Assembly (NCBI GenBank): GCA_949291125.1
Contig: CASEUJ010000015.1
Span: forward strand, 87,833 to 151,832
Reading direction: 5' to 3'
Source: an uncultured Ruminococcus sp.
GTDB taxonomy: Bacteria > Bacillota > Clostridia > Oscillospirales > Ruminococcaceae
DNA: 64,000 bases
Below, in pieces: positions 7,794 through 64,000 of this stretch. Under the pieces are notes generated by a model. The model did no database searches and was not told the DNA's origin. It saw nothing but the letters and a program-made list of their open reading frames with translations. The first letter of the stretch is position 1; each line of letters begins with the position of its first letter. The position numbers were made by a program, and so were the translations under genes.

Positions 7794-9875
7794 TTAGTTC
7801 CAACTTGGCGTACCGCCGGCCGCCTCGGTTGCATAATATATCAGGATCCTGAATGCATCCGAAATGGTGATGCTTCCATCGCCGTCCACATCTGCGGCTC
7901 TGCGCTGGGCATCGGTCAGATCGTCGTCGAGTCCGGCGGAGGCTTTTGTATATGCAATAAGCGTATTGAAAGCGTCTTGTATTGTAATATTTCCGTCGCC
8001 GTCGAGGTCGCCGGTAGTAATGCCAGTAAAGATCGTGCCGTCGGCAAAGTGGATGGTGGCTGTGGAGAGAGCGGAGTTACCGTTATCAATGGTGATGGAT
8101 TTCCACTGTTCCTCAGTGCCGTCGTAATAGATGTCGGTGAGGGCGTCGCACGAACTGAAAGCATTCGCTTCGATTGCGATGACATTATTGGGAATTGTGA
8201 CCGATGTCAGACTCGGACACCAGCCGAACATACTCTCTTCAATGGTTGTGAGGCCGTCTGGCAGCATGATAGTATCCAAACGATTACATCCGTTAAATGC
8301 ATACTTTTTCAGCTCCGTGACGCTGTCGGGAATTGTGATCTCTGTCAGATTATCACAATAGGCAAATGCATAATAGCCGATTGAAGTAAGTCCGGTGGGG
8401 AGATTTACTGTCTGTAGATTCATACAGGTTCTGAACGCTTCATTTCCAATAGAGGTCAGGCTGTCTGGTAATGTGACTGACGTGATATTTTCGTTGAACA
8501 TAAATGCATCATCTGCAATCGCCGTAGTTCCATCCGGAACGGCATAGCTTCCTCCCATGCCGGTTGGAAAATAGATCAGCTCCATTGGTTCGCGGCGGAA
8601 CAATACGCCGTCGATGTCGTAATATGTCGTGTTTTCCGCTGAAATTGTAAGATTGGTCAGGCTGTCGCATCCGCTGAATACCCAATCCCCGATTACAGAG
8701 AGTCCGGCGCCGAGCGAAAGACTGGTCAGTCCTGTACAGCCGTTCAATGCGTCATCGCCGATCTGTACAACACTGTCAGATAGGGTGAGCGCTGTCAATT
8801 CGGTACAATTCGAAAATGAACTCTCGCCGATTGTGGTTACACCGTCTGGAATGTTGTAGGCGCCGGATTTCCCGTTGGGATAACGGATCAGCGTTGTCTG
8901 TGCCTTGTCATAGAGAACGCCGTCGATACTGCTATATGATGTGTTGTCCTCCGATACGGTGATTGCTGTCAGCGTACCGCTATAGTCAAGTGCAAACTGA
9001 TCGATATTTGTGACGCTTGCCGGAATGGTGATTTCGGATAATTCACAACTGTTGAATGCGCCCGTTTCAATCCGGGTAACACTGTCAGGAATGGTAATGC
9101 TTGTCACCGATCTTCCTTCGTCGTAATTCATAAAAGCATACTCCCCGATTACAGTTACGCCATCCGGGATTACGACATCGCCCTCACATGCAGTTGCGTC
9201 AATAAGCGTTCCATTTAAGACCACAAACGGGTCATGTTCCTGCTGTTGTATCAGCCATGCGGTTTCCAGGAATGCCCCGTTTTCAATATAGGTATGACTG
9301 CCTGCAAGGGAGACATTCTCCAAATTGCTGCAATTCGAGAATGCGCCGCTTCCGATATGAGTTACATTCTCCGGAATGATAACGCCGGTAATATCCGGAT
9401 TGCCGTAGAATGCTCCTCCGCTGATTGCAGAAACATTATCCGGAATTGTCACCATACCGCTGCACATTTTTCCATCTACAACTACGCCATTAACCACGAC
9501 AAGTGGATCATCGGCGCGCTGTGCCTCAAGCCACGGTGTATTTTCAAAAGCACCGTCGTAAATGGTCGTGATGCTGTCGGGGATAGTGATTTCCGTCAAG
9601 TCAGAGCATTCTAAAAACGCATGGTAGTAGATAGTTGTAACGGGAATTCCATCCACCTCGGATGGAATCTCGACCGCCGTCGCCGTATGATCGCAATACG
9701 CCACGGCAAGCGTTTCATCCTCTTGCCGGTAAAATGTCAGTGCACCTGCTTCGATGGGTGGATTTTCATAGTCATACATCCCGCTTGCTTCCGCGGTCAT
9801 TCCTGCCATAGGAATTCCTACCGCACAAGCCATCGCCGCACATGCCGCGACTAAAATATGTTTCCAGGTTTTCAT
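7794..9875 (-). CDS. Secreted BspA-type leucine-rich-repeat protein with C-terminal dockerin
   Basis: 693 residues. A signal peptide (KTWKHILVAACAAMACAVG, cleavage near residue 30) is followed by more than ten LRR_5/BspA repeats of the form ITIPDSVT.I...AF..C. Residues about 620 to 690 form a type I dockerin: two calcium-binding loops DLDGDGNITIQD and DVDGDGSITISD, each followed by a helix. Dockerins attach extracellular proteins to scaffoldin cohesins, so this is probably a cellulosome-bound binding or adhesion protein rather than an enzyme; no glycosidase domain is visible. It has its own strong promoter. The partner cohesin may be encoded at 59-64 kb, but specificity cannot be read from sequence alone. 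Confidence 0.93.
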   Translation of the reverse strand: MKTWKHILVAACAAMACAVGIPMAGMTAEASGMYDYENPPIEAGALTFYRQEDETLAVAYCDHTATAVEIPSEVDGIPVTTIYYHAFLECSDLTEITIPDSITTIYDGAFENTPWLEAQRADDPLVVVNGVVVDGKMCSGMVTIPDNVSAISGGAFYGNPDITGVIIPENVTHIGSGAFSNCSNLENVSLAGSHTYIENGAFLETAWLIQQQEHDPFVVLNGTLIDATACEGDVVIPDGVTVIGEYAFMNYDEGRSVTSITIPDSVTRIETGAFNSCELSEITIPASVTNIDQFALDYSGTLTAITVSEDNTSYSSIDGVLYDKAQTTLIRYPNGKSGAYNIPDGVTTIGESSFSNCTELTALTLSDSVVQIGDDALNGCTGLTSLSLGAGLSVIGDWVFSGCDSLTNLTISAENTTYYDIDGVLFRREPMELIYFPTGMGGSYAVPDGTTAIADDAFMFNENITSVTLPDSLTSIGNEAFRTCMNLQTVNLPTGLTSIGYYAFAYCDNLTEITIPDSVTELKKYAFNGCNRLDTIMLPDGLTTIEESMFGWCPSLTSVTIPNNVIAIEANAFSSCDALTDIYYDGTEEQWKSITIDNGNSALSTATIHFADGTIFTGITTGDLDGDGNITIQDAFNTLIAYTKASAGLDDDLTDAQRRAADVDGDGSITISDAFRILIYYATEAAGGTPSWN

Positions 9876-56504: not shown

Positions 56505-57101
56505 ATGGCAGTAAGCAGAGAACCGATTCTGAAAAGATGCCGCTATCTGGGCATCAGCCCGATGGTAATGGGTATTGCAAAAGAGTCTAAGCGCAATCCG
56601 GGTGCAAACAGCCGCCGCAAGGTTTCGGAATATGGCACACAGCTCAAGGAAAAACAGAAGCTCAAGTTCATTTATGGCGTGGGCGAAAAGCAGTTCCGTC
56701 ATCTGTTTGAGATTGCTTCGAAGATGGAGGGGAAGGCCGGCGATAACCTGATCGCATGCCTCGAATCTCGTCTGGACAGCGTGGTGTTCCGCATGGGTCT
56801 TGCGCTGACACGTAGAGATGCAAGACAGCTGGTAACACACCGTCATTTTACCGTAAACGGTCAGGCAGTCGATATCCCGTCTTATCGTGTGAAGGAAGGC
56901 GATGTCATCGCACTGTGCGAAAAGAGCCGTTCGAGCGCAAAGTTCAAGGACGTCGTAGAACAGACTGCTGGCCGCACCATTCCGGTATGGCTTGAAGCAA
57001 ATAAGGAAAACTTCTCAGCAAAGGTTACCCGGCTGGCAACACCGGAAGATCTGGATTATGAAGTAGCAGCACACTTGATCGTCGAGCTGTATTCGAAATA
57101 A
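56505..57101 (+). CDS. rpsD: 30S ribosomal protein S4
   Basis: 198 residues. Primary 16S-binding protein at the mRNA entry. The N-terminus has a single cysteine (ILKRCRYLG), so it is a zinc-free form. The S4 domain (RLDSVVFRMGLALTRRDARQ) is intact. Confidence 0.97.
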   Translation: MAVSREPILKRCRYLGISPMVMGIAKESKRNPGANSRRKVSEYGTQLKEKQKLKFIYGVGEKQFRHLFEIASKMEGKAGDNLIACLESRLDSVVFRMGLALTRRDARQLVTHRHFTVNGQAVDIPSYRVKEGDVIALCEKSRSSAKFKDVVEQTAGRTIPVWLEANKENFSAKVTRLATPEDLDYEVAAHLIVELYSK

Positions 57102-57167
57102 TCGCTGGAAATCGGGAAGAATGGAAGAAACCACAGACGAAGCGACCACGCATAGGAGGGTGTTTTT

Positions 57168-58121
57168 ATGCTGGAGAAGATTGAAAAGCCGGAACTGGAC
57201 ACAGTGGAACTGCGCAGCGATGGAAAATACGGCAAGTTTGTATTGGCACCGCTGGAACGCGGCTATGGCATTACGCTCGGTAATAGTCTGCGGCGTGTGC
57301 TGCTCTCTTCATTGCCCGGAGTGGCAGTTAACTCCGTCAAGATCGACGGTGTACACCATGAACTCAGCACGATTCCCGGCGTGAAAGAAGACGTCACGGA
57401 AATTATTCTCAGTCTGAAGGGTCTTACCGCGAAGCTCTATGGCGATGGTCCGAAGACACTCTGTATCGAAGCAGAGGGCGAATGCGAAATTACCGCAGGC
57501 GATATCAAAACTGACTCAGAGGTCAATATCCTCGATCCGGGTATGCATATCGCAACACTGGGAAAGGGCGCAAAGCTGTATATGGAAATCGTCATCGATC
57601 GCGGCAGAGGCTATGTTTCGGCAGAGCGCAATAAGCAGATGATGAATACACCGATCGATGTGATCGCAGTGGATAGCATCTATACCCCTGTGCTGAAGGT
57701 GAATTATCAGGTGGAAGACACCCGTCTCGGTCAGGTGACAGACTATGACAAGCTTACGCTTGAGGTCTGGACTGATGGCACGATTTCTGCCAAGGAAGCC
57801 ATCTCACAGGCAGCCAATCTCCTCAACGAGCATCTCAAGTTGTTTGTTGACCTCTCGGATGAGGACAGCATTGCGGAAGTTCTTGTGGAAAAGAACGACA
57901 AGGGTAAAGAGAAAATCCTGGAGATGACCATTGAGGAACTTGACTTATCGGTACGGTCGTTCAATTGCCTGAAGCGTGCCGGTATCAATACCGTGGACGA
58001 CCTGATCAACAAATCAGAGGAAGAAATGCTGAAGGTAAGAAACCTCGGTAAAAAATCCTTTGACGAGGTGCGTGAAAAGCTCCAGTCGCTGGGCTTTGAC
58101 CTCGCCAGTGAAGAAGACTGA
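57168..58121 (+). CDS. rpoA: RNA polymerase alpha subunit
   Basis: 317 residues. The N-terminal dimerisation domain ([20 protein letters not shown]) and the C-terminal helix-hairpin-helix domain ([16 protein letters not shown]) that binds UP elements are both present. AGGAGGG precedes the ATG. Confidence 0.98.
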
Positions 58122-58188
58122 GAAACCACAGCATGACGTGATGTCGGAATGCCGCCATGCGTCATGAGTAGAAAAGGAGTGAATGACA

Positions 58189-58530
58189 ATGCCGGGTACC
58201 AGAAAACTGGGCAGACCGACCGACCATAGAAAGGCTATGCTGCGCGGCATGGTGACCTATCTGCTGGAAAATGGTCAGATTGAGACCACCGTTACACGCG
58301 CAAAAGAAGTGCGCGCAGCAGCAGAAAAGATGATTACTATCGCAAAGACATCGGATCTGCATGCAAAGCGCCAGGTTATGGCATATGTGACCAAAGAAAG
58401 CGTTGCAAAAAAGCTGTTTGATGAGATCGCACCGAGCTATGCAGACCGCAAGGGCGGATATACACAGATCATCAAGACTGGTCCGCGCCGCGGTGACGCC
58501 GCAGAGATGGCGATTATCAAGCTGGTATAA
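58189..58530 (+). CDS. rplQ: 50S ribosomal protein L17
   Basis: 113 residues, last gene of the cluster; starts [22 protein letters not shown] 58189 is preferred over 58183 because AAGGAG is then 9 rather than 3 bases away. A terminator follows 40 bases downstream. Confidence 0.97.
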
Positions 58531-58570
58531 GATCGATATGATTTTGCCGGAAATCGGCAATCAGATAAGG

Positions 58571-58605
58571 GCGGTGTGCTACATGGATGTGGCACACCGC
58601 TTTTT
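58571..58605 (+). terminator. Terminator of the ribosomal supercluster
   Basis: GCGGTGTGC pairs perfectly with GCACACCGC around a 12-base loop, followed by TTTTT. Confidence 0.92.
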
Positions 58606-58735
58606 GGTATCAGAAAACAAAATCGTTCGCCTAATGCAATCGAAAAACATCCTACAAATGTCAAAAAATATTGTGCAGCTTGCTGAAAAACAAGAATTAC
58701 TTTTATGAATTACTACCAAAAAATGCGGTTGACCC

Positions 58736-58764
58736 TTTACAATTTGATCGTTTTGGAGTATAAT
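58736..58764 (+). promoter_or_regulatory. Promoter of an uncharacterised transcript
   Basis: TTTACA, 17 bases, TATAAT. It lies 500 bases before the next protein gene, with a structured GC-rich stretch directly downstream. The 130 bases between the ribosomal terminator and this promoter hold nothing else visible. Confidence 0.65.
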
Positions 58765-58769
58765 TGAAG

Positions 58770-59100
58770 TAAACGATTCTGTTGTATGTTTCCTCGTATC
58801 AACAGGACGGATAGCGTGGATCATGCCATTGGCGCTTTGTACAAATCTGTACAAAGCCCCCTTGCCATTTGCGGGTTCACTTGCTGTGCAATGAATGCGG
58901 CGTGGTGCGCCTGTGCCGCCGGATGGGATCGCGGCGTCTTGGGGCAGAAGCGGTCTTTGGCGGTCATTTACACCACTTGCCGCAGCAGAAAGAAAATAGG
59001 TCGCCATGCGCAAAATGCCGGGTTTTCCGGTATGGGCGTGAAGTCCGGGCGTGAATTGGGATAATACACAATTATGCTGGAATGGTTTTGTAGTAATTAA
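58770..59100 (+). other. GC-rich structured intergenic region, candidate non-coding RNA
   Basis: About 330 bases with no convincing protein frame but several strong hairpins. CTGTTG pairs with CAACAG (58779-58806). GCTTTGTACA pairs perfectly with TGTACAAAGC around AATC (58834-58857). GCCGC pairs with GCGGC near 58916-58937, and CCGG pairs with CCGG around TTTT near 59021. It stands between two promoters. No known RNA family recognised. Confidence 0.4.
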
Positions 59101-59120
59101 ACAAAAACTATCTGCGTCTA

Positions 59121-59149
59121 TTGACATTTCTGTTGCAATACACTATAAT
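59121..59149 (+). promoter_or_regulatory. Consensus sigma-A promoter of the scaffoldin genes
   Basis: TTGACA, 17 bases, TATAAT: a perfect match. The leader is about 125 bases to the start codon at 59280. Confidence 0.92.
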
Positions 59150-59279
59150 TAATACAATTGGAACAGCATGGAGCCGGGAAGCAATTCTGCTATTGAGAAT
59201 GATAGTGACCCGAGCATTTTTACAGGGCTGCCGACGCGGAACATCGGTGAGCGCCTGTATGAAACTGAGGAGGATAACA

Positions 59280-60296
59280 ATGAAGGCAAAAAAAACAATT
59301 GCAGGTGTTCTGGCGCTTTCGGCGCTGGTAGCTGCGGCGGTGTCCGTACAGGCTTCTGCGGCAGATGCGGCAGTAACATTGTCGGCATCTCATGAGACCG
59401 TTACGGCGGCTGGGGACGCATTCAGCGTCGATGTATCAATCGCAGATGTCCCGGAGACAAAGGTCAGTGTTCTTGACTTTGCGCTGACGTATGACTCGAG
59501 CATATTGACCGTTACCGATATCGCGATCGGCGATGCGGCAAATACCGATGTTTCCGCAGATACGACTGCGGCAGATGCACCGGTGTTTGCGTATGTCATC
59601 AAAGATGGCGAGATCACTGTTAGCTGGACCACTGCACTCGGCTCTGATGCATGGATTGCCGACGACGGCGTGATCCTGACCATCAGCGGTACCGTGAATG
59701 ACGGCGTTGCGGACGGAACGGTTACACCGATCGATTTTGCACCGGTTACGCGTGAGACTTTTGAGGGATCTGGTGAGATGAACTCCACCATGATCGTTGG
59801 TATGATCGATGGTACGGATTATGCATCGTATGATCTATCTACAACGGCTGGTTCTGTGACAGTTGGTACATCGGTTGATCCGACAGATCCGCCGGAAACT
59901 ACGACTGCGCCGCCTGTGACCGACGAGCCGGATGTGACAACTGTGCCATCAGAAACGGATGAGCCGGATGTGACAACTGTAACGTCTGAAACCGATGCGC
60001 CGGATGTGACAACAGATGCACCTGTGACCACAGAACCGGCAGGAGACGAAACAACAACACAACCGACCATCAGTGGGTCAAGTACGCTTTGCGGTGACGT
60101 CAATGTAGACGGCGACGTAAATATGGCGGACGTTATCTGTCTGAATAAGGTTGCTGTCAATATCATGGATCTGACGACCATTGGTAGGGCAAATGCAGAC
60201 GTCAATGTGGATGGTCAGGTAGATGGTAACGACGCAATGGTACTGCTGCGTTTCCAGGTACAGCTGATCAATACGCTGCCGTATACTGGTGAGTGA
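59280..60296 (+). CDS. Cohesin-dockerin adaptor scaffoldin, ScaC-like
   Basis: 338 residues. Signal peptide (residues 1 to about 28, ending ASAADA), then one cohesin module (about 30-195) with the strand pattern of ruminococcal cohesins (FSVDVSIADVP, LDFALTYDSSILTV, GVILTISGTV). A Pro/Thr/Asp/Glu linker follows (about 195-265), then a C-terminal dockerin with calcium loops DVNVDGDVNMAD and DVNVDGQVDGND. The cohesin-plus-dockerin layout is that of ScaC of Ruminococcus flavefaciens, an adaptor that switches which enzymes are loaded on the primary scaffoldin. Start at ATG 59280 after GAGGAG; the open frame further upstream crosses the promoter. Calling it ScaC is inference from architecture and position. 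Confidence 0.88.
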   Translation: MKAKKTIAGVLALSALVAAAVSVQASAADAAVTLSASHETVTAAGDAFSVDVSIADVPETKVSVLDFALTYDSSILTVTDIAIGDAANTDVSADTTAADAPVFAYVIKDGEITVSWTTALGSDAWIADDGVILTISGTVNDGVADGTVTPIDFAPVTRETFEGSGEMNSTMIVGMIDGTDYASYDLSTTAGSVTVGTSVDPTDPPETTTAPPVTDEPDVTTVPSETDEPDVTTVTSETDAPDVTTDAPVTTEPAGDETTTQPTISGSSTLCGDVNVDGDVNMADVICLNKVAVNIMDLTTIGRANADVNVDGQVDGNDAMVLLRFQVQLINTLPYTGE

Positions 60297-60463
60297 TCAC
60301 CGATCCGCACACAACTTCCACTGTGTGCAGACGCTCTGAATTGTAGAGCATCTTAATCATTGTATATTTAGGGAATGCATTCCGAGGGGGGGTGGGTTCC
60401 CTAACTATAGGTAAATTTACAATGTGTTTCTGACAAATGTCAGGAAGGAAAGGGAAGAAAAAT

Positions 60464-63400
60464 ATGAAGACACGATCGAAAAAAGTGTTGTCTGTCGGGA
60501 TTTCTGCTCTGATGGCGCTTTCTTCGCTGCCGCTCAGCGCCCTGCCGGTAAGTGCAGTAATCGGTGCGAGCCAGACGGAAAACGCCGGAACGCCGTACAA
60601 TTTTGTACTGCAGGAAGCAGGAACCGGGTCGCAGACAATCGAAATCTCGTCGGATGAGGTTGCTGCTGGTGATGTTACTAAGTCGCTGTACCTCTATCTG
60701 GATTCCGATGAATGGGCATCCGACAACTACATCCAGCAGGCGACGATCAGCTGGGCGACCACAAGCGGCGCACCGCTTACTGATGGCGGCGAAGTATACT
60801 CTGATATCTACTATCAGAATATTAAGCAGCCGGATACCAAGAGCGGAACAGCAGACCGTACTTATGTAGCGGCAGATGGCACAGAGTATAATGTCAGCAG
60901 TACAGGCTATGAATTCCCGTTCTGCCTGACAAAGCTTTCTAAGCTTGGCTCCAAACTGCGTTACAACGATGCATATTGCATGACAACAGTAAACTCTATT
61001 GCAATGGAACGTGCATTCGGTTCTCAGATCGAATATGTTTCCGAAAATGTAGTACAGTTCTCGTATTCGTATGTGGCATCCGCAGAAGATCTGGCGGCTG
61101 GTATCAAGACGAACCACACAGAAGTCTGTGATGTACAGTATGACGAAGATGGGGTAGCTTACATCGAATATGACTATGTAAGACAGGATAACTATCAGAC
61201 CGAAACAAAGGTTCTGAAGATGCCGAGCTATTCGACTACACGTTACATTGAAGATGCAACTGGCAAAAAATATGTTCCGGGTTCGAGTGACCTTTATAAC
61301 TGGAAGACCACACAGTCTACTCCGGTAACCGAATACTTTGGCGGCGACTCAATGCAGTTCCCGTTCACCGGATTTGATGTAGTTATCCCGCAGGGCACAC
61401 CGGACGGCGTATATTATGTACAGATTGCATCACGTGAAGGCGACGGCGAAACAATTTGTGCACTGCAGACTGCATCGGATTTCGAGGCACTCAAGGCAGA
61501 ACAGGAAGCAAACCCAGATTACAATGATGTTTGCACACGTATCTATGCAAGCGGCAACGCACCGAACAACTTTGCACTGCCGCAGGATGAAAGTAAGGAA
61601 ACTGCTGTCGTTCAGATCGTAGTCGGTGATGTAGCTCCGTCTACAACAGAACCGGTAACCACAACAGAACCGGCAGATACAACTACCCAAACGCCGGTTG
61701 ATCCGTCTGGCTATCCGGAATGGGTAATTCCGGAGGTAAATACCGAACCGGGCGCTGAGATCGAATTCTCGATCACACAGAATGCTGGTCGTGCAACGGC
61801 TGGTATCGGCGGCGGCTTTGAACTCCCAGATGCAACTAGGGCAATTCTGGGCCTTTTGGAAGGCGCAACTCTGGAAGAGTCGGTTTGGTCCGGCGATGCA
61901 TATGGCTCGCTGACACCGGTTATCAATCTCGACCGCTATGATTCGGATGGCATTGTGCTCTTCGGTGCAAGCGGCAGCGCCGTTGCTCCGGCACCGGCAG
62001 ACGGCTCTTCTCTGCTTGGTATGGCATTCCAGGTTGCAGACGCTGAAACAGTTGCTTCTGTTGCACAGGAATATAATATCAAAGCACAGACAGATGCAGA
62101 TGGTAACACTTATTATTCGTTCCCGATCGTATGGTCTGATGTTGATGCACAGGATCCGGGCGAAACAGTAGATGGTTCGGGCAATACCGTTACCGTAATG
62201 CGCAACCGCTTTAGCTACTGCGACGGTGACGAAAATGCACCGGATATCTCGAAGTCTTTGACTTATACTGACGGTGCGATCAACATCTATACAGAAGTAG
62301 AGGATGTGCCGTCTGGCAATTATCCGGAATGGGTAATTCCGGAGGTAAACACCGAACCGGGCGCTGAGATCGAATTCTCGATCACACAGAATGCTGGTCG
62401 TGCAACGGCTGGTATCGGCGGCGGCTTTGAGCTTTCGGCTGCAACCAGAGCAGTTCTTGGACTTCTGGAAGGTGCAACTCTGGAAGAGTCGGTTTGGTCC
62501 GGCGATGCATATGGTTCGCTGACACCGGTTATCAACCTCGACCGCTATGATTCGGATGGCATTGTACTCTTCGGTGCAAGCGGCAGCGCCGTTGCTCCGG
62601 CACCGGCAGACGGCGCTTCTCTGCTTGGTATGGCATTCCAGGTTGTAGACGAAGCAACTGTAATTGCAACTGCACAGGAATATGGCATTGAAGCACAGAC
62701 AGATGCAGATGGCAACACCTATTATTCGTTCCCGATCGCATGGTCTGATGTTGATGCACAGGATCCGGGCGAAACAGTAGATGGTTCGGGCAATACCGTT
62801 ACCGTAATGCGTAACCGCTTTAGCTATTGCGATGGTGACGAAAATGCACCGGATATCTCGAAGTCTTTGACTTACACTGACGGTGCAATCAATATCTATG
62901 TAAGCGACATTCCTGATACAACAGAATCGACAACAGATGTAACAACGACAACAACAACTGCTGCGACAACAACTACTACTGCAGAAGCTACAACCACAAC
63001 AGAACCGGCTCAGACGGAACCGCCGACGACTCTGTATCCGTCAGATGAAAAGTCTGTATGGTCACTCGAAGAGAAAACGGTAACTGCTGGCGCAGAAATG
63101 CAGGAAGTTATTTATAACGCAGGCATTACCAATGCAATCCCGGCAGAAGCACTCCAGGGTGCAATTGAATTCCCGGATGCAACATTCGCACTGCTGACAT
63201 TCCCGTACGCTGATGGTACGGTATACAACAATGGTGTATACGCATCGATGCAGTCGATCACGAACATGCGCTATATCAACGAAGGCGAAGGCAAGCTTCT
63301 GTTCGGTCTCCAGGCTTCTGGTACAGTATTCCCGGTTGACCCGTCTGACCTTGTAACACCGATGACCGATGGTCAGCTCGTAGAGATCAACTTCGCGATC

Positions 63401-64000
63401 CCGAATGATGAAGGCGTTGTCGCAGTTGCCCGTGAATACGGATTGACTGCACAGCAGGATGCAGATGGAAACTGGTACTATGAGTTCCCGATCAACTGGA
63501 TGGCTCCGGGTCAGGATCAGCAGACCACGATTGACAACAGCACCGGTGAACCGGTATCGATCATGGTAGATCGCTTCCAGTACATTGCTGCAGGCGGCGA
63601 TACAAACGTATTTGATGATTATGTTGAACTTGAAAACGGTTATCTCCGCGTAATCGTTGATGAAGATGTAATCAATGCAACGGAAACAACAACTGAAGAA
63701 GCAACAACCACTGAGGAAGCAACAACAACTGTTGCATCTACAACAGAAGCAACAACAACCGAACCTGTGACAACAACTACAGAGGAACCGGCAACTACAA
63801 CTTCTACTGAGTCAGAAACCACGACAACAGAGTCGGCTACCACAACTGAAGAAGCAACGACAACAGAACCGGCAGAAACAACAGTTTCTTATGAAGTTGA
63901 GATCCTGACGGATGCTGCATTCTTCTTCTCCGTTGATGATCGCGATTTCGTTCCGTCTGACCTGATGCAGGTAACTGCACACGGCGAAGATGGCAGCACA
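60464..64000 (+). CDS. Large secreted scaffoldin-like protein with repeated cohesin-like modules (3' end beyond window)
   Basis: 1179 residues are visible with no stop to the window edge. Signal peptide residues 1 to about 31 (LMALSSLPLSALPVSA). Residues 32-390 form an N-terminal region I do not recognise, beta-rich by appearance. A Thr/Pro linker follows, then module A (about 417-615), module B (about 620-816), a Thr linker, module C (about 863-1065), a Thr/Glu linker (about 1068-1140) and the start of a further domain. Modules A and B are nearly identical; C is clearly related. They show a cohesin-like plan (PGAEIEF...NAG, DGIVLFGASGSA, LLGMAFQVADA, final DGAINIY strand) with extra inserts. 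ATG 60464 with AAGGGAAG upstream. It probably corresponds to a primary scaffoldin of the sca cluster; ScaA or ScaB cannot be chosen. Confidence 0.8.
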   Translation, partial: MKTRSKKVLSVGISALMALSSLPLSALPVSAVIGASQTENAGTPYNFVLQEAGTGSQTIEISSDEVAAGDVTKSLYLYLDSDEWASDNYIQQATISWATTSGAPLTDGGEVYSDIYYQNIKQPDTKSGTADRTYVAADGTEYNVSSTGYEFPFCLTKLSKLGSKLRYNDAYCMTTVNSIAMERAFGSQIEYVSENVVQFSYSYVASAEDLAAGIKTNHTEVCDVQYDEDGVAYIEYDYVRQDNYQTETKVLKMPSYSTTRYIEDATGKKYVPGSSDLYNWKTTQSTPVTEYFGGDSMQFPFTGFDVVIPQGTPDGVYYVQIASREGDGETICALQTASDFEALKAEQEANPDYNDVCTRIYASGNAPNNFALPQDESKETAVVQIVVGDVAPSTTEPVTTTEPADTTTQTPVDPSGYPEWVIPEVNTEPGAEIEFSITQNAGRATAGIGGGFELPDATRAILGLLEGATLEESVWSGDAYGSLTPVINLDRYDSDGIVLFGASGSAVAPAPADGSSLLGMAFQVADAETVASVAQEYNIKAQTDADGNTYYSFPIVWSDVDAQDPGETVDGSGNTVTVMRNRFSYCDGDENAPDISKSLTYTDGAINIYTEVEDVPSGNYPEWVIPEVNTEPGAEIEFSITQNAGRATAGIGGGFELSAATRAVLGLLEGATLEESVWSGDAYGSLTPVINLDRYDSDGIVLFGASGSAVAPAPADGASLLGMAFQVVDEATVIATAQEYGIEAQTDADGNTYYSFPIAWSDVDAQDPGETVDGSGNTVTVMRNRFSYCDGDENAPDISKSLTYTDGAINIYVSDIPDTTESTTDVTTTTTTAATTTTTAEATTTTEPAQTEPPTTLYPSDEKSVWSLEEKTVTAGAEMQEVIYNAGITNAIPAEALQGAIEFPDATFALLTFPYADGTVYNNGVYASMQSITNMRYINEGEGKLLFGLQASGTVFPVDPSDLVTPMTDGQLVEINFAIPNDEGVVAVAREYGLTAQQDADGNWYYEFPINWMAPGQDQQTTIDNSTGEPVSIMVDRFQYIAAGGDTNVFDDYVELENGYLRVIVDEDVINATETTTEEATTTEEATTTVASTTEATTTEPVTTTTEEPATTTSTESETTTTESATTTEEATTTEPAETTVSYEVEILTDAAFFFSVDDRDFVPSDLMQVTAHGEDGST
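61712..62308 (+). repeat. Scaffoldin tandem module, copy A
   Basis: About 600 bases nearly identical to 62321-62917, offset exactly 609 bases (203 residues). Shared landmarks include TCCGGAATGGGTAATTCCGG at the start of each copy and identical sequence around the DRYDSDGIVLFG segment. Confidence 0.92.
62321..62917 (+). repeat. Scaffoldin tandem module, copy B
   Basis: Second copy of the module at 61712. Differences are concentrated in two places: the segment after GGGFEL (SAATRAVLG against PDATRAILG) and the segment after AFQV, plus the linker joins. Confidence 0.92.

Follow-up and report, generated by a model that had tools for sequence, protein, structure and literature searches.

The DNA analysed here is a 64,000-nt stretch (the window) of the + strand of the genome of a gut bacterium from the genus of Ruminococcus callidus, G000:C15:87833-151832, and its subject is a pair of neighbouring genes at the right-hand end of the window that encode cellulosome scaffoldins. 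The genome (G000) comprises 2.2 Mb in 47 contigs, with a completeness of 87%. Gene 1 (59280..60296, +) encodes a protein of 338 amino acids (aa) consisting of a signal peptide, seen by inspection of the sequence, a cohesin (residues 31-196; 59370..59867, +), a linker rich in Thr and Pro, and a dockerin (residues 267-336; 60078..60287, +). Both modules scored above the Pfam cut-offs (Cohesin, 46.5 bits; Dockerin_1, 33.6 bits); the dockerin matched PDB 1daq, and the top PDB match of the protein was 5lxv_A, the ScaC cohesin of Ruminococcus flavefaciens (7.6e-28). The cohesin-linker-dockerin architecture that an earlier note on this DNA had proposed was thereby borne out. As a secreted protein with one ScaC-type cohesin and a C-terminal dockerin, encoded first and ahead of a scaffoldin in the scaA position, the product of gene 1 is on sequence grounds a ScaC-type adaptor scaffoldin.

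When the gene 1 protein was compared with its own genome, 35 matches were obtained at E <= 0.001 and, among the matches listed, many span its dockerin end. One falls within the frame of a GH48 cellulase gene, whose C-terminal 81 residues contain a dockerin 54% identical to that of gene 1 over 72 columns (12.9 bits in Pfam, below cut-off). From this identity, the adaptor and the main enzyme probably share a cohesin target. For R. flavefaciens FD-1, passages of PMC5934362 describe binding of the group-1 dockerin of ScaC to cohesins of ScaA or to cohesins 1-4 of ScaB.

Gene 2 (60464..64000, +) begins at the ATG at 60464 and is open at the end of the window, which coincides with the end of contig C15, so that the gene is truncated; its reading as a secreted scaffoldin in the scaA position also draws on the orthologs described below. 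The following parts were delimited, with boundaries set by us: a signal peptide (residues 1-31); an N-terminal module of about 360 residues, termed domain X and recognized by sequence comparison (residues 32-389; 60557..61630, +); a short linker; module A (196 aa, residues 417-612; 61712..62299, +); module B (198 aa, residues 618-815; 62315..62908, +); a T-rich linker; module C (206 aa, residues 863-1068; 63050..63667, +); a Thr-rich linker (63668..63901, +); and, from residue 1147, the start of an X-dockerin (the X module), recognized by its match to the tail of an ortholog and cut by the contig end (63902..64000, +). A second secreted protein with at least three cohesin-like modules had been claimed for this place; the three cohesins stand, and to that description must be added that the gene is truncated, that a large module precedes the cohesins and that the start of an X-dockerin follows them.

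Modules A-C are, by sequence and by model, cohesins with predicted dockerin binding. In a phmmer search of the PDB, gene 2 matched 10uq_A ('Cohesin domain number 3', 7.2e-22) and 10ur_A ('number 4', 1.9e-18), and a 10-row cohesin profile matched 10uq at 3.8e-70 and 10ur at 2.6e-66, two of the ten rows being the R. callidus modules that 10uq and 10ur themselves match. The AlphaFold2 model of module A had a predicted local distance difference test score (pLDDT) of 91.4, and its top Foldseek match was 5n5p, cohesin 5 of R. flavefaciens ScaB (5.6e-8). All titles from rank 1 to rank 36 refer to cohesins, scaffoldins or components of cellulosomes; an antibody complex follows at rank 37, and 10uq and 10ur were absent among the best 50 matches. 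A cohesin fold was thus found for module A from the model, and for modules B and C by alignment to A and by the profile, and placement outside the cohesin fold, which the earlier note had allowed for, was not observed. That note had also described long extra segments in these modules, which was confirmed: they measure 196-206 aa, whereas the 5n5p chain has 138 aa. A similar length, 191-193 aa, is however found in 4n2o, another cohesin of R. flavefaciens. Modules A and B are close duplicates by alignment and profile, and the identity of their DNA (538 of 588 positions) suggests a recent duplication.

Orthologs of gene 2 were found in a scan of genome contigs in R. callidus ATCC 27760 and at three loci of Ruminococcus sp. 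or uncultured Ruminococcus sp. The R. callidus ortholog (NZ_KI260414.1) adjoins its scaC, is interrupted by a 100-N gap, and shares 41% identity with gene 2 over the N-terminal part that aligns. Its last cohesin differs from 10ur_A at 1 of 213 aligned positions and the preceding one is close to 10uq_A, so that structures fitting orthologous cohesins already exist; no paper on 10uq or 10ur was recognizable by title in the literature searched. Chains named cohesin domain number 1-4 occur across PDB entries 10uq, 10ur, 10us, 10ut, 10uv and 10uw and match cohesins of the genus. Domain X as number 1 would be in keeping with the numbering ('cohesin 3', '4'); this was not counted, as a module could be hidden in the 100 Ns that interrupt the R. 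callidus contig.

The C-terminus of gene 2 can be read from its orthologs. The complete ortholog in genome G001 has 1319 aa, and its final 187 residues match the CttA X-dockerin of R. flavefaciens (4iu2_B, 7.6e-9). Several cohesins with a C-terminal X-dockerin, as in ScaB, are present in the orthologs of G001 and G006, and the end of the window holds about the first 30 residues of an X-dockerin. The window's final 28 codons align with the start of the G006 tail (57%), and a 76-aa open end at C14:48009-48185 of G000 matches the final part of the same tail (56%). Contigs C15 and C14 therefore probably meet with roughly 85 codons missing, gene 2 probably continues onto the end of C14, and we infer that it ends in a complete X-dockerin. 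With four X-dockerin tails (G001, G006 and two other G000 proteins) as a profile, further multi-cohesin proteins and domain X proteins of the genus were found, the multi-cohesin proteins including those in G001:C14, G003:C156, G004:C4 and G011:C69.

Domain X was present in all 16 genomes sampled from the R. callidus genus, G000 included. Many of the proteins carrying it have 500-600 aa and end in an X-dockerin or an ordinary dockerin; all ten that were tested gave a dockerin match at E <= 0.01, seven of them above cut-off. Outside the genus, with matches counted at a sequence E <= 1e-4 in a small set of open reading frames, a distant form of domain X stands at the start of the gene that follows scaC at 11 of 25 scaC loci, in genera g20 and g52; at the other 14, no form was found at that threshold. 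As this includes the scaA slot of a five-gene cluster (genome G413, described below), domain X is probably, by sequence, a form of the module that opens ScaA. Gene 2 thus combines a position behind scaC with a ScaA-type N-terminal module, the latter at the level of distant similarity. As to its nature, the reading leans to a fourth and larger cohesin, partly from the pattern of its end as read from the sequence; domain X may instead be a carbohydrate-binding module. When the domain X profile was combined with ScaA starts of other genera, the R. flavefaciens cohesins 5m2s, 5m2o and 5aoz appeared at E 0.16-0.2, behind an antibody chain, which is a hint only. In Pfam and PDB searches of the bridging sequences, no cohesin was found in the domain X module.

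The gene at 58183-58530, which we take from its sequence to be rplQ, lies 749 bases upstream of gene 1. In 8 of the 16 genus genomes (G000, G001, G002, G006, G008, G013, G014 and G015) rplQ precedes scaC at a distance of 0.6-0.9 kb, and in seven of these eight the next gene after scaC carries domain X; in G013 it carries cohesins and gave no domain X match. In R. callidus the scaC-gene 2 pair lies on a 5.3-kb contig that holds no rplQ, and in G012, where scaC stands at the end of a contig, the 8.3 kb that were read contain no rplQ. A full scaC was not seen among the matches listed in G003, G005, G007, G009, G010 and G011, and G010 and G011 gave no match to the cohesin half of gene 1 at 1e-10. 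Outside the genus, rplQ was found in the flank (up to 1.5 kb) of none of the 25 scaC loci, so the ribosomal neighbourhood looks like a trait of the genus and not part of the general sca plan. Gene 1 is preceded by the sigma-70 type promoter claimed for it (TTGACA-17-TATAAT, 59121..59149, +), which agrees with the consensus at 12/12 positions, as a consensus match only; there are four such perfect sites in the whole window (three on the + strand, one on the - strand). Four looser promoter-like sites between 58500 and 60600 correspond to chance level (shuffles, 3.5 +/- 1.8). Between the stop of gene 1 (60296) and the ATG of gene 2 (60464) lie 167 bases, in which the terminator scan gave no terminator-like site on the + strand; the two genes may be co-transcribed. 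An Rfam search of 57000-64000 gave no match.

In the five-gene cluster of G413 (genus g20), scaC comes first. The second gene encodes 558 aa with a domain X-like start and a dockerin matching the R. flavefaciens ScaA dockerin (5n5p_B, 1.5e-17); the third, 1793 aa with six Pfam cohesin stretches and an X-dockerin; the fourth, an X-dockerin protein of 786 aa; and the fifth, 329 aa with a C-terminal NPKTG sequence. With this scaC-scaA-scaB-cttA-scaE-like order as reference, scaC and the gene that follows it mirror the start of a sca cluster, as the earlier note had stated; the likeness stops at the C-terminus of gene 2, whose ortholog ends in a ScaB/CttA-type X-dockerin and not in a ScaA dockerin. 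The contiguous order scaC-scaA-scaB-cttA-scaE was not found in the 6.7 kb downstream of the gene in G001, which holds genes that look unrelated by eye and none of scaB, cttA or scaE, nor in G000, as far as can be inferred from C14. Beyond the probable end of gene 2, C14 holds short open reading frames, a TrmH-like methyltransferase and unrelated-looking genes (by eye), and no scaB- or scaE-like gene was seen there. ScaB-, CttA- and ScaE-like genes were thus not found directly following gene 2, where the earlier note had proposed to look for them, and a cttA-scaE-like pair was found 108 kb away.

This pair ends in a ScaE-like gene (C15:38618-39337) located 107,775 bases before gene 1 and encoding 240 aa with one cohesin-like module. 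Its sorting signal scored 16.8 bits with the NCBIfam model LPXTG_anchor (cut-off 15.9), and its cohesin was supported by a PDB match to 10uv (2.9e-5) and by a profile comparison of 87% against ScaC cohesins. A 714-aa X-dockerin protein, in the position of CttA, is encoded directly before it, and this order recurs in 13 of the 16 genus genomes, G000 among them; in the remaining three scaE loci (L174, L176 and L177) no X-dockerin was found, and two of these, L174 and L176, are short pieces near contig ends. G000 further contains 68 dockerin matches (66 above cut-off), three Pfam cohesin matches including gene 1 (two of three above cut-off), one further cohesin of the gene 2 type at the start of contig C17, and one GH48 gene, with its C-terminal dockerin. 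The presence of further scaffoldin and dockerin genes, on which the cellulosome assignment of the earlier note depended, was thus confirmed, and a dockerin-bearing cellulase occurs together with a wall-anchored ScaE-like scaffoldin, as in a cellulosome producer judged by gene content.

Several other genes of G000 were recorded alongside these. Behind scaE, at about 39.5-41 kb of C15 (L051:9464-10960), lies a gene that looks recombinase-like by eye, and by a short motif such a gene occurs at 8 of the 16 scaE loci L162-L177, the own locus included (L162, L165, L166, L167 and L170-L173). A 206-aa cohesin-dockerin protein (L043:3226-3846, contig C43), with its dockerin above and its cohesin just below the Pfam cut-off, adjoins phage terminase- and portal-like genes (by eye). 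A lipoprotein-like protein of 319 aa (L042:2983-3942, contig C40) has a C-terminal cohesin that stops early (Pfam positions 2-54 of 139) and is possibly a second surface-anchoring route or a broken gene. The starts of contigs C17 and C29 (L041:2-1618 and L052:3-1385) truncate two more Thr-rich proteins whose ends resemble dockerins and one of which has a cohesin; scaffoldin repeats may therefore break the assembly repeatedly. Within the window, a 693-aa frame at 7794-9875 (-) has a dockerin-like end matching part of the X-dockerin profile (best stretch 1.3e-8).

The two genes form a true core locus of a cellulosome and represent a variant of the kind known from R. flavefaciens. The locus is probably the front half of a cellulosome scaffold, in which a ScaC adaptor stands beside a main scaffoldin with the start and position of ScaA and the anchor of ScaB; gene 2 looks, from its modules, like a ScaA/ScaB composite. 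In such an assembly ScaC would attach through its dockerin to one of the enzyme-binding cohesins on the main scaffold and would present a second specificity with its own cohesin, widening the set of enzymes bound. Cohesins A-C, and perhaps domain X, would collect dockerin-bearing enzymes together with ScaC, and the C-terminal X-dockerin would tie the assembly to the sortase-anchored ScaE-like protein encoded 108 kb away. One protein would then take the roles of both ScaA on ScaB and ScaB on ScaE, removing a tier. The wider proposal, to which we give an even chance, is that the R. callidus genus has merged the ScaA and ScaB tiers in one protein with a ScaA-type oversized-cohesin start, three large cohesins that form a subtype of their own and an X-dockerin of the ScaB type leading directly to the wall anchor, and has split the five-gene sca cluster into rplQ-scaC-scaAB and cttA-scaE.

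Several observations weigh against a composite scaffoldin with a ScaA start and a ScaB anchor. The X-dockerin was read to a stop only in G001, that of G006 runs to a contig end, and that of G000 is cut, its link to C14 being drawn from the one open end. At the same position G002 has a gene with an ordinary dockerin at its end and G013 has one without a domain X match, so the architecture of gene 2 is not fixed in the genus. Domain X gave no Pfam match above cut-off, its best PDB profile matches reached only E 0.12-0.2 with an antibody chain first, and its AlphaFold2 model, from five sequences, had a pLDDT of 47.9, at which the absence of a Foldseek match at E <= 0.001 has little meaning. Profile-profile comparison of domain X with cohesins was negative (0.3-0.9%), which says little because the true cohesin pair of A-C and ScaC was also missed (0.7%). 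For the ScaE-like protein there was no Pfam cohesin match, the Pfam anchor model scored 13.3 of 20 bits, below cut-off, and its PDB matches did not include the ScaE cohesin 4iu2_A.

Given the low pLDDT of domain X, gene 2 might be a CttA-like substrate-binding protein that has gained cohesins, with domain X as a carbohydrate-binding module giving it its own grip on the fibre. The 500-600-aa proteins that carry domain X and a C-terminal dockerin or X-dockerin, with no detected cohesin, have the outline of CttA, and one of them, of 508 aa with domain X and an X-dockerin, lies about 18.6 kb further on C14. We consider this reading unlikely, since the X-dockerin protein beside scaE, in the true CttA position, gave no domain X match, and the best non-antibody PDB profile matches of domain X are the R. 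flavefaciens cohesins, if only at E 0.16-0.2. It is more improbable still that gene 2 is a plain ScaA ortholog docking onto a separate ScaB: synteny, the N-terminal module distantly shared with the scaA slot of other genera and the ordinary dockerin of the G002 gene would all suit a plain ScaA, but the complete ortholog has at its end an X-dockerin that matches CttA, unlike the group-5 ScaA dockerin of the G413 gene, and the fold search put ScaB cohesin 5 nearest to module A. That modules A-C are adhesin-like beta-sandwiches that do not bind dockerins is scarcely credible: their binding is predicted only, and the lack of a cohesin match in Pfam (PF00963), shared by NCBIfam, speaks for this reading, but module A has the cohesin fold, PDB chains named cohesins match the orthologous R. 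callidus modules, the neighbour is scaC and the genome is rich in dockerins. Oversight of divergent ruminococcal cohesins by profiles has already been reported for other cases in passages of PMC11557425.

With the composite scaffoldin as the preferred reading, the locus assigns a group of cellulosome components to the R. callidus genus. The ruminococcal kind of scaffold was already known; the ScaA/ScaB composite, the splitting of the cluster and the position across the genus appear to be new, as far as the literature searched shows. No paper was found with both 'Ruminococcus callidus' and 'cellulosome' in its title or abstract, and 'callidus' is absent from the main text of a 2024 survey of cellulosomes (PMC11557425). 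The ruminococcal scaffold plan is shown to be modular at the level of the gene cluster, the evolution of the ScaA and ScaB tiers becomes testable with a composite scaffoldin, and genus-wide sequences are now at hand for cohesins and for an N-terminal module that standard profiles miss.

The sca cluster of R. flavefaciens shares with this locus the order in which scaC comes first and a scaffoldin follows, as well as the existence of X-dockerin and sortase-anchored ScaE-like parts. It differs in that only two genes stand together here, behind rplQ, with the cttA-scaE-like pair far removed, and in that the gene in the scaA slot has larger cohesins and ends, where the ortholog is complete, in an X-dockerin. 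According to passages of PMC5301203, PMC4081043, PMC2930009 and PMC5934362, ScaB is the docking partner of ScaA in R. flavefaciens and in turn docks onto ScaE. ScaA of that species has a unique group-5 C-terminal dockerin, whereas the complete ortholog of gene 2 has an X-dockerin instead, the copy in G000 being cut. With R. flavefaciens ScaB, gene 2 has in common multiple cohesins, T-rich linkers and, as read from its orthologs, the X-dockerin, the fold of module A being closest to that of ScaB cohesin 5; it differs from ScaB in having three cohesins of 196-206 aa and an additional N-terminal module, and in lying directly behind scaC and not between scaA and cttA, where scaB is found.

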